From: Curvibacter sp. GWA2_64_110
Lineage (GTDB): Bacteria > Pseudomonadota > Gammaproteobacteria > Burkholderiales > Burkholderiaceae_C
Direction of reading: 5' to 3'
Assembly: GCA_001797315.1 (NCBI GenBank)
Contig: MGPC01000014.1
Location: forward strand, 1 to 64,000
DNA: 64,000 nt
Shown here: piece after piece, positions 42,711 through 57,738 of the stretch
Layout: every line of letters begins with the position of its first letter
Numbering within the stretch: the stretch's first letter is position 1
Program-made: the position numbers and the translations under genes
Notes under the pieces: generated by a model
Told to the model about the DNA's origin: nothing
What the model saw: the letters and a program-made list of their open reading frames with translations, nothing else
The model's database searches: none

Positions 42711-42755
42711 ATTGGCGCACCCCCAGGCTGCGCGCACTGCGTGTCGCTCCGCCAC

Positions 42756-42810
42756 CCCCCTTGCAGGGGGCAACGCCAGCGGCCCGGCGCAGCCGGTTCC
42801 GCGGCGTTCC
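42756..42810 (+). repeat. Comamonadaceae-type intergenic repeat, copy 1
   Basis: A 55-base GC-rich element that begins with the hairpin CCCCC-TTGCA-GGGGG and ends GCGGCGTTCC. A diverged inverted copy lies at 42870-42923. It lies in the 246-base gap between the DUF1840 gene and the TctC gene; the gap has no other gene. Confidence 0.7.
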
Positions 42811-42869
42811 TGGCCTTAGGGGCGCGCGCTAGACTGAAACGGATCCCGCGCACCATAGAAAGCCCATCG

Positions 42870-42923
42870 GGAAACGCCGTGGAACCGGCTTTGCCGGGCC
42901 ACTGGTGTTGTCCCCTTGAGGGG
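42870..42923 (-). repeat. Comamonadaceae-type intergenic repeat, inverted copy 2
   Basis: This 54-base element is the reverse complement of copy 1 with scattered mismatches. It ends with the hairpin CCCC-TTGA-GGGG (42912-42923), and a further hairpin AGCGGC-GTCA-GCCGCT lies just behind (42925-42940). The pair could form a long cruciform and may act as a terminator region between the convergent genes. Confidence 0.7.
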
Positions 42924-42956
42924 AAGCGGCGTCAGCCGCTCAGGGGTGCAACTCGA

Positions 42957-54520: not shown

Positions 54521-55486
54521 ATGTCCGAACAAAAACCACCCGGCAAGTTCCGCCGCACCGCACCGCCGCCCGCGAAGGCGCCTATTCCCGCCGGGCAAAC
54601 CAACACGGCGGCGCATGGCGCCAATGGCACCGTGCGCCTGAACAAGCGCATGGCGGAGCTCGGCATGGCTTCGCGCCGCGAGGCCGATGACTGGATCGCC
54701 AAGGGCTGGGTCAAGGTCAATGGCAAGGTGGCCGAGATGGGCATGCAGGTCGCCCCGGATGTGGCCATCGAGATCGCCCCCCAAGCCCGGGGCCAGCAGG
54801 CGACCCAGGTCACCATCCTGCTCAACAAGCCGATCGGTTATGTCAGCGGCCAGGCCGAAGACGGGCACGAGCCGGCAGCCGTCCTGATCCAGCCGCAGAA
54901 CCGCTGGCGCGACGACAACGCCCGTTTCTTCTTCCACCCCTCGCAGCTGCGCGGCTTGGCGCCGGCCGGGCGGCTCGACATCGACTCCACCGGCCTGCTG
55001 GTGCTGACGCAGGACGGCCGCGTGGCGCGCCAGCTCATCGGCGAAGACGCGGTGATGGACAAGGAATACCTGGTGCGGGTGGTCTACACCGGCATGGCCA
55101 ACGAGGCGGCCGCCACGTCCGCAGCCGCTACCTATGGCGCACGCCCCGCAGCTCGGCCGGCACCGCCCACCCAGCTCAGCCGCATTGACGACGACGACCC
55201 GGTCAGCGCCGATGTGCAGTCCGTCTTCCCGGCCGAGAAGCTGCGCCTGCTGCGCCATGGCCTGAGCCTGGACGGCCAGCCCCTGAAGCCCGCCAAGGTC
55301 GAGTGGCAGAACCCGGAGCAGTTGCGCTTTGTGCTGACCGAGGGCAAGAAGCGCCAGATCCGGCGCATGTGCGAACTGGTCGGCCTCAAGGTGGTCGGCC
55401 TCAAGCGCGTGCGCATCGGTGGCGTCATGCTCGGCAACCTGCCGGTCGGGCAGTGGCGCTACCTGGCGCCGCACGAGAAGTTCTGA
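54521..55486 (+). CDS. rRNA/tRNA pseudouridine synthase (RsuA/RluF type)
   Basis: A 321-residue RNA-modifying enzyme. A disordered, proline-rich N-terminus (1-40) leads to an S4 domain (VRLNKRMAELGMASRREAD) and then the catalytic domain, with the Asp in GRLDIDSTGLLVLTQDG (about 149-165). GKKRQIRRMCELVG near the C-terminus is a family RNA-contact motif. The RluF branch is most likely by the TGLLVLTQDG context, but RluB or RsuA remain possible. There is no clear ribosome site; a palindromic repeat lies directly before the ATG. Confidence 0.87.
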   Translation: MSEQKPPGKFRRTAPPPAKAPIPAGQTNTAAHGANGTVRLNKRMAELGMASRREADDWIAKGWVKVNGKVAEMGMQVAPDVAIEIAPQARGQQATQVTILLNKPIGYVSGQAEDGHEPAAVLIQPQNRWRDDNARFFFHPSQLRGLAPAGRLDIDSTGLLVLTQDGRVARQLIGEDAVMDKEYLVRVVYTGMANEAAATSAAATYGARPAARPAPPTQLSRIDDDDPVSADVQSVFPAEKLRLLRHGLSLDGQPLKPAKVEWQNPEQLRFVLTEGKKRQIRRMCELVGLKVVGLKRVRIGGVMLGNLPVGQWRYLAPHEKF

Positions 55487-55500
55487 TTTTTCTTCGCTCA

Positions 55501-55573
55501 CACGGAAGAAGGCCATGGGCGGCCGCCTCATAGGGCCTCCCAAATCGTTGGCCGCCCATGGCCTTCCTCCGTG
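55501..55573 (+). repeat. Long hairpin module 1 with 25-base loop
   Basis: Arms 55501-55524 and 55550-55573 pair at 23 of 24 positions. The 25-base loop contains CCTCATAGGGCCTCCCAAAT plus CGT (55526-55548). The same 23 bases recur, perfectly inverted, as the loop of module 2. It starts 14 bases after the pseudouridine synthase stop and has no T run behind it. The 320 bases before htpG contain no gene. Confidence 0.92.
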
Positions 55574-55610
55574 AGTCCGGGGTCGCCGCCGCCGAAAACA
55601 CGTATGCCAC

Positions 55611-55687
55611 GCCCTGCGGGTGGACCGGGGCCGGCTGACGATTTGGGAGGCCCTATGAGGAAGCCGGCCCCGGCCCGCCCGCAGGGC
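55611..55687 (-). repeat. Long hairpin module 2 with complementary loop
   Basis: Arms 55611-55636 and 55662-55687 pair at 24 of 26 positions, one further pair being a possible G-U. Their sequence is unrelated to the arms of module 1. The loop (55637-55661) carries 55638-55660, the exact reverse complement of 55526-55548. The region from 55688 to the htpG start has no further repeat. Confidence 0.92.
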
Positions 55688-55806
55688 TTTCCAGTCAACG
55701 CCAACCCTAAAGCCTTGAAACATCTAGAGGCGCCCATAATTCGAGTTTTTGCGCGCACCGCCATTGGTGCATCACCTTGTTTGAACCCAAGACTGTCTTT
55801 CCTCCC

Positions 55807-57738
55807 ATGAGCAAGAAAACCCATTCCTTCCAGGCCGAAGTCGCCCAGCTGCTGCATCTGGTGACCCACTCGCTGTACTCCAACAAGGAAATCTTCCTGC
55901 GCGAACTGGTGTCCAACGCCTCCGACGCCTGCGACAAGCTGCGCTTCGAGGCGCTGAACAACGCCGCGCTGTACGAGGATGCGCCCGATCTGCAGGTGCG
56001 CATCACTTTCGACAAGGCCGCCAAGACGCTGACCATCACCGACAACGGCATCGGCATGAGCGCGCAGGAGGCCATCGACCACCTCGGCACCATCGCCAAG
56101 AGCGGCACGCGCGACTTCATGAGCCGGCTGGAAGCCGACAAGCAGGCCAACGCCAAGGAGCAGGGCCAGTTGATCGGCCAGTTCGGCGTCGGCTTCTACT
56201 CCGGCTTCATCGTGGCCGACAAGATCACCGTGGAGTCGCGCCGCGCCGGCCTCCAACCCGAAGAAGGTGTGCGCTGGACCAGCGGCGGCAGCGGTGACTT
56301 CGAGGTTGAAGCCATTACCCGGCTCGAGCGCGGCACCAGTGTCATCCTGCACCTGCGCGAGGATGCCGACGACTACCTCAACGGCTGGAAGGTCAAGAGC
56401 ATCATCAACAAGTACTCGGACCACATCTCCCTACCCATCCTGATGCAGAAAGAGGAATGGAAGGAAGGCGAGAACAACGAAGGCGGCGGCATGGTCACCA
56501 CCGACGAGTGGGAAACCGTCAACAAGGCCAGCGCGCTGTGGACACGACCGAAAAAAGACGTCACGGCCGAGCAGTACGAAGAGTTCTACAAACAGATCAG
56601 CCACGACTTCGAGGCCCCGCTGACCTGGAGCCACAACCGCGTCGAAGGCGGCACCGAATACACCCAGTTGCTCTACATCCCGGCCAAGGCGCCAATGGAC
56701 CTGTGGAACCGCGACAAGAAGGGCGGCCTCAAGCTCTATGTGAAGCGCGTCTTCATCATGGACGATGCCGAGGCGCTGCTGCCGAGCTACCTGCGCTTCG
56801 TCAAGGGCGTGGTGGACTCGGCCGACCTGCCGCTCAACGTCAGCCGTGAACTGCTGCAGGAAAGCCGCGACGTGCGCGCCATCCGTGACGGCAACACCCG
56901 CCGCGTGCTCGGCCTGCTGGAAGACCTGGCCAAACATGATGTGCCAGCCGCCGATGCCGACGAGGAAGCCAAGGCACAGGCCGGCAAGTTCTCGAAGTTC
57001 TACGCCGAGTTCGGCAGCGTGCTGAAGGAAGGCCTGGGCGAAGACTTCGCCAACCGCGAGCGCATCGCCAAGCTGCTGCGCTTTGCCTCCACCAGCAGCG
57101 ACACGGCCAGCGTGAGCCTGGCCGACTACAAAGCGCGCATGAAGGAAGGCCAGGAGGCGATCTACTACATCACGGCCGACACCCTGGCCGCCGCCAAGAA
57201 CAGCCCGCAGCTCGAAGTGTTCAAGAAAAAGGGCATCGAGGTGCTGCTGATGACCGACCGCGTCGACGAATGGGCGCTGAACTACCTGCAGGACTTCGAC
57301 GGCACGCCGCTGCAATCGGTCGCCAAGGGCGCGGTCGACTTGGGCAAGCTGCAGGACGAGGCGGAGAAGAAAGCGGCTGAAGAGGCTGCCGAGACCTTCA
57401 AGCCCACGCTGGCCAAACTGAAAGAGGCGCTCAAGGACAAGGCCGAGGACGTGCGCGTCACCAGCCGCTTGGTCGATTCACCGGCCTGCCTGGTGGTGCA
57501 GGACGGCGGCATGAGCACGCAGCTGGCGCGCCTGCTCAAGCAGGCCGGCCAGAAAGCGCCCGAGACCAAGCCCATCCTGGAAGTGAACCCCGAGCACCCG
57601 CTGGTGAAGAAGCTGGAAGGCTCGGTGCACTTCAACGACCTGGCCCACATCCTGTTCGACCAGGCCCTGCTGGCCGAAGGCGGCCTGCCGGAAGACCCGG
57701 CCGCTTATGTGAAGCGCGTCAACGCCTTGCTGGTCTGA
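55807..57738 (+). CDS. htpG: Molecular chaperone HtpG (Hsp90)
   Basis: A 643-residue dimeric ATP-driven chaperone of the cytoplasm. The N-terminal GHKL ATPase has NASDACDKL (about 37-45), DNGIGM (79-84) and [10 protein letters not shown] (124-133). The middle domain includes NVSRELLQ with the catalytic Arg, and the C-terminal dimer domain is complete. I chose the ATG at 55807 (MSKKTHSF) instead of the in-frame one ten codons earlier. No heat-shock promoter with clear boxes was identified. Confidence 0.95.

Follow-up and report, generated by a model that had tools for sequence, protein, structure and literature searches.

In the window, by which we mean the whole 64,000-nucleotide stretch of DNA that was analysed, two long hairpins lie between an rluB-like gene (stop codon at 55486) and htpG (ATG at 55807), where the first-pass annotation had placed them, just upstream of htpG. 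The arms of hairpin 1 are 24 nt long and 96% complementary, those of hairpin 2 are 26 nt long and 92% complementary, and each pair of arms encloses a loop of 25 nt. As had been claimed, the two loops share 23 bases that are exact reverse complements of each other (23/23). The 23-mer CCTCATAGGGCCTCCCAAATCGT was found at 55526-55548 on the forward strand and at 55638-55660 on the reverse strand with zero mismatches, and shuffled sequences (n = 100) gave a mean of 0.00 matches. RNA folding of 55490-55700 gave -131.8 kcal/mol (z = -8.25), and none of 200 shuffles was equally good; both hairpins are real and far beyond chance. The stems had been called unrelated. When the arms of the two hairpins were compared with the loops in register, 13 of 24 positions agreed (p = 0.015 and 0.020 in shuffles). 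Random members of the class described below share at least as much, and the description was right in effect. The features of the pair are listed in Table 1.

Table 1. Features of the hairpin pair between the rluB-like gene and htpG.
Feature	Position	Strand	Basis or detail
Hairpin 1, left unit	55501-55573	-	Arms 55501-55524 and 55550-55573; CCTCAT strand is +, probable folding strand (CGATTT...ATGAGG) is -
Conserved box strand CCTCATA, hairpin 1	55526-55532	+	Loop match and class alignment
Variable part of the loop, hairpin 1: inner stem GGG/CCC closed by a 3-nt tip	55533-55541	+	Fold and covariation
Conserved box strand AAATCGT, hairpin 1	55542-55548	+	Loop match and class alignment
Spacer separating the two units	55574-55610		Sequence; compared with the spacers of other pairs
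Hairpin 2, right unit, inverted	55611-55687	+	Arms 55611-55636 and 55662-55687; probable folding strand is +
Conserved loop core, hairpin 2, comprising the tip, the inner stem and the two box strands	55638-55660	-	Exact reverse complement of 55526-55548

Downstream of both hairpins, at 55714-55740, lies a block CTTGAAA-N12-CCCATAAT, which we take to be sigma32-like from its likeness to the promoter consensus; an htpG transcript started there would therefore not contain the hairpins. Elsewhere in the window, a GC-rich inverted repeat at 42750-42931, with 59-nt arms (80% complementary) lying 64 nt apart, looked REP-like to the eye.

The same locus was then read in the relatives of the genus. The start of HtpG was matched in 25 of 26 genomes, in one of them (G306) only distantly, which left 24 genomes readable at the locus. 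An inserted region is common to three of these: the genome of the window (G000), a Hylemonella sp. MAG of the Comamonadaceae that falls within the genus of the window (G317, locus L004), and G014. In G317 only hairpin 1 is present; its 24-bp stem is perfect and its loop identical to that of the window. Between G000 and G317, hairpin 1 differs at 1 of 73 bases and htpG at about 10%. In G014 the outer left arm of hairpin 1 is fused to the outer right arm of hairpin 2 with no loop between them, which is best read as a deletion. Both the htpG and the rluB tree unite G014 with G317 (support 0.987 and 0.979) and leave G000 outside, so that the two-hairpin state was most simply ancestral to the three genomes and was followed by separate deletions in G014 and G317. 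Sixteen other genomes have a short rluB-htpG gap without box hairpins, G309 and G229 have longer insertions there, and in G298, G299 and G300 rluB was not found adjoining htpG. These data bear on whether the pair acts as a local regulator or terminator for rluB and htpG, as its place directly after the rluB-like stop and upstream of the htpG promoter-like block might suggest. However, neither hairpin is followed by the T run of a Rho-independent terminator (AGTCC and TTTCCAG follow), the 16 genomes with the short gap keep rluB beside htpG without the element, and the same element stands beside or inside unrelated genes, all of which makes a local role very improbable.

It had been suggested to search relatives for the 23-base loop, and the outcome was divided. 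The exact loop is not dispersed: with up to 3 mismatches the 23-mer was present nowhere else in its own genome (3.4 Mb, 95.56% complete), and a mobile family bearing the exact loop was rejected when, among 299 family genomes, only the own genome and G182 matched at the same tolerance, the G182 match having no long hairpin around it. A 17-mer core (up to 2 mismatches) added only G317 and one 2-mismatch match in G319 within the genus, and an exact 22-mer scan of genome contigs returned one locus, L004. What is shared is a box motif with differing stems. A covariance model built from three known hairpins (R1) matched 13 of 120 relatives, the own genome included, in which the loop motif was common and the stems were different and nearly perfect. 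A refined model (R2), made from 22 of 25 hairpins after L109, L110 and L120 had been dropped, found the architecture in 61 of the 399 family genomes and in 32 of the 141 genera. The threshold was E <= 0.01 for each genome, at which about four chance genomes would be expected in 399 if the rough E-values hold. Among the best 12 candidates per genome, seven genomes have at least 12 and the own genome at least four. Another pair of the own genome lies at about G000:C3:101895-102095, between acyl-CoA-dehydrogenase-like and CoA-transferase-like genes, presumably gcdH and caiB. Over the order, 5 of 399 genomes matched at E <= 0.001, four of them within the family and the fifth (G651) without CCTCAT. 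The hairpin of G651 (G651:C1:22754-22832, L263), in another family of the order, is long, has a different loop, sits in a linker judged by eye to be uvrA-like, and perhaps represents a sister class.

In each unit of the class, the arms of an outer stem, paired at an offset of one base, enclose CCTCATR, then an inner stem (about 4 bp) capped by a variable tip, then AAATCGK. The outer stem is 20-30 bp long and of arbitrary sequence, CCTCATR and AAATCGK form a conserved two-strand internal loop, and the small inner stem covaries. In 97 distinct hairpins, drawn from 102 matches in loci picked by the models, the non-degenerate box positions were each conserved in 88-96 and 88.5% of the outer-stem cells were Watson-Crick. 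Box conservation was judged on this model-based set only, since the hairpin sets used below for boxB-boxA, for A.C and G.T mismatches and for stability were selected with a search pattern in which the boxes are included. A tag at the foot of the stem gave nothing clear in the 12 nt outside the stems of 152 hairpins, where one orthologous locus dominates the counts. Carriage by viruses, plasmids or phages was not found with the patterns and queries used, and the copies examined gave no sign of transposition or target duplication. Several contigs (G245:C78, G245:C141, G440:C25, G440:C93 and G051:C32) end at or near hairpins, and short-read assemblies may thus under-count the copies. A different, MITE-like repeat is also present in the own genome. 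It measures about 270 bp, ends in 31-bp inverted repeats and contains two hairpins; it occurs at L065:2563-2830 (G000:C7) and in six other near-full copies, seven in all, plus several fragments. The long hairpins of L065 and L077 belong to this repeat and were rejected as class members; they came from a 562-kb sample of the own genome (4 kb counted twice through the overlap of the window with L031), whose crude filter listed hairpin 1 and missed hairpin 2.

Units of the class are commonly arranged in pairs. Among 31 pairs closer than 300 bp, 30 were convergent, one ran in the same direction and none was divergent, and the spacing between the 19-bp stems was 44-142 nt. The sole same-direction close pair (L131 of G121, in the gap between the presumed gcdH and caiB) has diverged boxes and identical loops. 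Partner loops were 94% identical in the 29 pairs of equal length, and partner stems agreed at 9.16 of 19 arm positions, with 9.15 of 19 for random distinct hairpins. The variable middles were identical in 16 of 29 partner pairs, whereas loops of the same genome that are not partners had identical middles in 27 of 88 comparisons; the L120 and L131 pairs were left out of this count. The loops are therefore homogenised in part within pairs, and complementarity is not obligatory. An RNA kissing complex of the two 23-base loops had been offered as one explanation of the perfect complementarity in the window, but 13 of the 29 pairs have non-identical middles, the partners of L135 match at only 18 of 26 loop positions, and G317 retains hairpin 1 without hairpin 2, which leaves such a complex with hardly any credibility. 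The other proposal, a mobile hairpin of conserved loop present in two inverted copies, came nearer the mark: the class is dispersed and consists mostly of inverted pairs whose loops are conserved and whose stems are free, while the mobility itself is suggested by presence and absence between relatives.

Covariation of the stems where the loop is conserved had been set beforehand as a test, and the stems did covary. In 22 hairpins from many loci, 91.5% of the cells paired and 20 of 23 pairs changed on both sides; the covariation score was 0.709 against 0.158 ± 0.019 in a shuffle test, which can be inflated by relatedness, and at most 0.122 in slid controls, which retain the relatedness. The same was seen at an orthologous site between two genes that we take to be boxB and boxA, where 58 of 60 genomes of one genus matched a 1.8-kb query. 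At hairpin 2 of this site (22 genomes, 21 distinct rows), 12 of 25 pairs changed on both sides, in 35 cells against 8.3 ± 2.0; the alignment kept 22 of 26 rows, one false row, L242, L250 and L258 being dropped. Hairpin 1 (28 copies, 22 of them in an unscored alignment) has two main stem alleles, each fully paired, as well as mismatched intermediates. In at least 10 genomes of the genus the two genes are only 26-31 nt apart, so that no element is present between them, and several of the element-free genomes carry copies of the loop core elsewhere. A third hairpin, oriented like hairpin 1, stands between hairpins 1 and 2 in L252, L254-L256 and L258-L261. Hybrid hairpins occur in L253, where the left arm comes from one unit and the right arm from the next, and in L244. 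In these two loci the left arm is combined with the whole or the outer end of a neighbouring unit's right arm, which are traces of recombination at the loops.

The hybrid hairpin of L253 indicates that the loops do recombine, and together with the inverted identical loops it would fit the invertible DNA switch, recombining at the 23-bp inverted repeat, that had also been put forward for the window. This switch found no support: in the pairs found, by searches that are biased towards paired arms, the arms pair within their own hairpin, the assemblies read contain the hairpin state only, and the fused outer arms of G014 are without a loop, as a deletion would leave them. We consider it about as implausible as the kissing complex. 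The hybrid hairpin also has to be weighed in favour of a purely mutational origin, in which template switching or repair copying of one arm onto the other keeps the complementarity, and conversion between neighbours keeps lineage-specific loops, with no function at all. Some stems indeed change in blocks, as did that of L247 hairpin 2, and the middles of partners are more often identical than others of the same genome, by the counts given above. Yet such a process does not predict boxes conserved across 32 genera, nor the fixed polarity of the dimers, nor the strand bias described below, and mismatched intermediates of single steps exist, so that an origin without function appears improbable, if less so than the local, kissing and switching readings.

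The mismatches of the outer arms are strongly biased between the two strands. Read on the CCTCAT strand, 141 hairpins had 117 A.C and 21 G.T mismatches, and 55 A.C against 16 G.T remained when each was counted once per stem cluster, position and type (p = 3.8e-6). A.C exceeded G.T in each group, with counts of 23:2 in left partners, 33:6 in right partners and 53:6 in singles, which are not phylogenetically independent. The two partners of a pair occupy opposite strands of the chromosome, so the bias is a property of the element rather than of the region. On the transcript strand no such bias was seen (G.T:A.C of 18:21 in coding and 20:28 in intergenic copies). Since A.C on one strand is G.T on the other, the bias amounts to a tolerated wobble on the CGATTT...ATGAGG strand, and the hairpin that matters probably forms on this strand, whatever the direction of transcription, as judged from the sequences. 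By computed stability the CGATTT strand came out ahead in 126 of 140 hairpins under RNA parameters and in 93 of 140 under DNA parameters, in rows that are likewise not phylogenetically independent. The inner stem had no clear strand bias (pooled A.C 34 against G.T 20, fourth pair G.T 18 against A.C 6). A mutation bias restricted to one strand (C to T on the strand that folds) could produce this sign just as selection would. Along that strand the boxes can pair as C-G, G.A, A.G, T.T and T-A, and tandem G.A pairs stack.

The main rival to a single-stranded DNA hairpin is a structured RNA. It would carry the CGATTT...ATGAGG sequence, be transcribed by read-through or from a promoter of its own, and bind a protein or a ligand through its tandem G.A loop. 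The tolerance of G.U and the stacking of G.A, A.G and U.U suit RNA at least as well as DNA, and the larger stability bias with RNA than with DNA parameters and the classic covariation are also in its favour. RNA tandem G.A motifs such as the k-turn and the SECIS core have the same G.A, A.G and U.U between C-G and U-A as the folding strand, but unlike the k-turn the loop here is symmetric and without a 3-nt bulge. Against a structured RNA, the pairs carry both orientations, and the folding strand was antisense to the neighbouring gene in 17 of 23 single units, which speaks against a role within the host mRNA; gene strands for the singles were assigned by GC3 periodicity and reading of the loci, and the strand tallies left out L120 (2) and L154:5926 of 102. 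Moreover, Rfam gave no match at the gathering score in the window and, on 11 relatives together with 55400-55800, only sub-threshold matches, mostly to microRNA hairpins, and copies also stand inside coding sequences. A structured RNA is on balance unlikely, although it deserves more weight than the purely mutational origin.

Many copies are intergenic and often follow soon after a stop codon. Others stand in frame within coding sequences: long UvrA proteins have three pairs in L153 and, in L154, two pairs together with a remnant, and there are further copies within a leucyl-tRNA-synthetase-like protein (LeuS), two MmeI-like proteins, a DUF3418 protein, presumably of HrpA type, and a CobB/CbiA-like protein. 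In the first UvrA linker of L169 the protein sequence suggests an eroded pair, composed of a left arm, the second loop and a right arm. A Y1_Tnp protein was present in 36 of 38 carriers, two being without it, and in 41 of 51 presumed non-carriers, which are genomes without a listed R1 or R2 match, most of them not shown individually to belong to the 399-genome sample. No box hairpin was near the Y1_Tnp genes in 29 loci of 1.7-3.4 kb. With Y1_Tnp in carriers and non-carriers alike and no flanking hairpins, a RAYT (TnpA_REP) as proven mobiliser was not supported. The Y1 protein of carriers has about 240 aa, is followed in at least eight loci by a gene that we take to be GltB-like, and is usually single whether in carriers or not; Pfam searches of four such proteins returned only Y1_Tnp. 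An example is L186 (G000:C36:71138-71464), beside the GltB-like gene. For Y1 proteins of subclass 2.1 (TnpA), a published survey reports that it found no REP (PMC6006769).

Several known systems resemble the element in part. The sites may be compared with the attC sites of integrons, which fold on one specific strand and vary in sequence while the structure is kept; unlike those, the conserved CCTCATR/AAATCGK lies on the side of the tip and not as R boxes at the foot, and no cassette array or integrase was noticed in the reading of the loci. The Rickettsia palindromic element RPE-1, compared by description, is not known to have a free-arm architecture. RPE-1 shares with the present element the occurrence of palindromic inserts in frame inside proteins (PMC3733652). 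GTAG REPs, REP dimers, BIMEs and REPINs with RAYT are closer, being likewise short non-coding palindromes arranged as inverted dimers with spacers of tens of bases. REPs and their dimers are intergenic near gene ends and occur in frame in uvrA, tRNA-synthetase and helicase genes, and compensated stem changes are reported for them (PMC3733652, PMC2817692). The preference of the Comamonadaceae element for its sites is similar to that described for GTAG and CGTC REPs and their dimers, which are 20-40 bp long with an end tag and family-specific stems (PMC3733652). In contrast to GTAG REPs, the Comamonadaceae element has no GTAG tetranucleotide at the foot of the stem (152 hairpins), its arms of 20-30 bp differ from copy to copy with no shared stem sequence, its conserved part is an internal loop near the tip, and no RAYT gene is flanked by inverted copies (29 Y1_Tnp loci). 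The copy number of GTAG REPs is often over 100; for the present element the counts were at least four in the own genome and at least 12 in seven genomes. CGTC REPs, among them RPE-4 and RPE-6 of Rickettsia, are mostly dimers. Their tag is CGTC, TGTC or CCTC, with AT as the first stem pairs, and the variant CCTC followed by AT resembles CCTCAT; by the published description (PMC3733652) they also have an 8-9 bp stem, a 4-5 nt loop and a CCA tail that are absent here, where long locus-specific arms surround the CCTCAT block. No description of the element was found in the literature searched, including PMC3733652, PMC2817692, PMC5217627 and PMC6006769, a scope that excluded preprints and most subscription papers. 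This agrees with the statement in the first-pass annotation that no element of such layout was known, REP dimers being similar in several ways.

The best reading of the pair is a REP-like, non-autonomous dimer of single-stranded DNA hairpins without a REP tag or a conserved stem; that such a dimer works, or formerly worked, as a strand-specific single-stranded DNA hairpin we hold to be an even bet. Observed in its favour are the architecture, covariation, fixed polarity, mismatch strand bias, presence and absence in relatives and in-frame copies, to which the computed stability of the CGATTT strand and the mostly antisense placement of that strand in single units may be added. The window pair would be one dimer of a dispersed REP-like palindromic element of the Comamonadaceae, each unit of which would be a hairpin some 75 nt long, relevant only on the strand CGATTT(inner stem)ATGAGG. 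The box strands would stack between the outer and inner helices, whose sequences would be free so long as they pair, and two units would be laid with fixed polarity around a short spacer. The folded molecule would be single-stranded DNA, a present or past substrate of a strand-specific enzyme, for which an HUH/Y1 protein is the natural candidate. The copy in the window may be a resident that three species inherited from their ancestor, and not a regulator of htpG. Several points stand against the REP-like reading: the Y1_Tnp survey tied no enzyme to the element, the REP tag and the conserved stem are lacking, the inner stem has no clear strand bias, a mutation bias would mimic the outer-arm result, and transposition or target duplication was not seen. 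Moreover, the arms have been kept paired at old orthologous sites, which is not expected of a decaying selfish insert. It is also possible, though we put it clearly below an even chance, that the hairpins are a distinct kind of element, in which the tandem-G.A internal loop of a strand-specific hairpin is fixed while the long arms drift yet stay paired through speciation, and whose fixed-polarity dimers are recognised as single-stranded nucleic acid by dedicated machinery, possibly as the missing partner of chromosomally settled Y1 proteins without a known REP.

REP-type repeats are usually recognised by their look-alike copies, whereas here only the structure, the polarity and a small internal loop are common to the copies; as these differ in sequence, they would tend to escape finders that rely on sequence identity. 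The biased mismatches are a testable sign that selection or repair keeps one chromosomal DNA strand, or an RNA made from it, folded whichever way transcription runs. These findings are also relevant to the in-frame settling of palindromic repeats in genes such as uvrA, and to the possible targets of single-copy Y1 proteins that lack a known REP.
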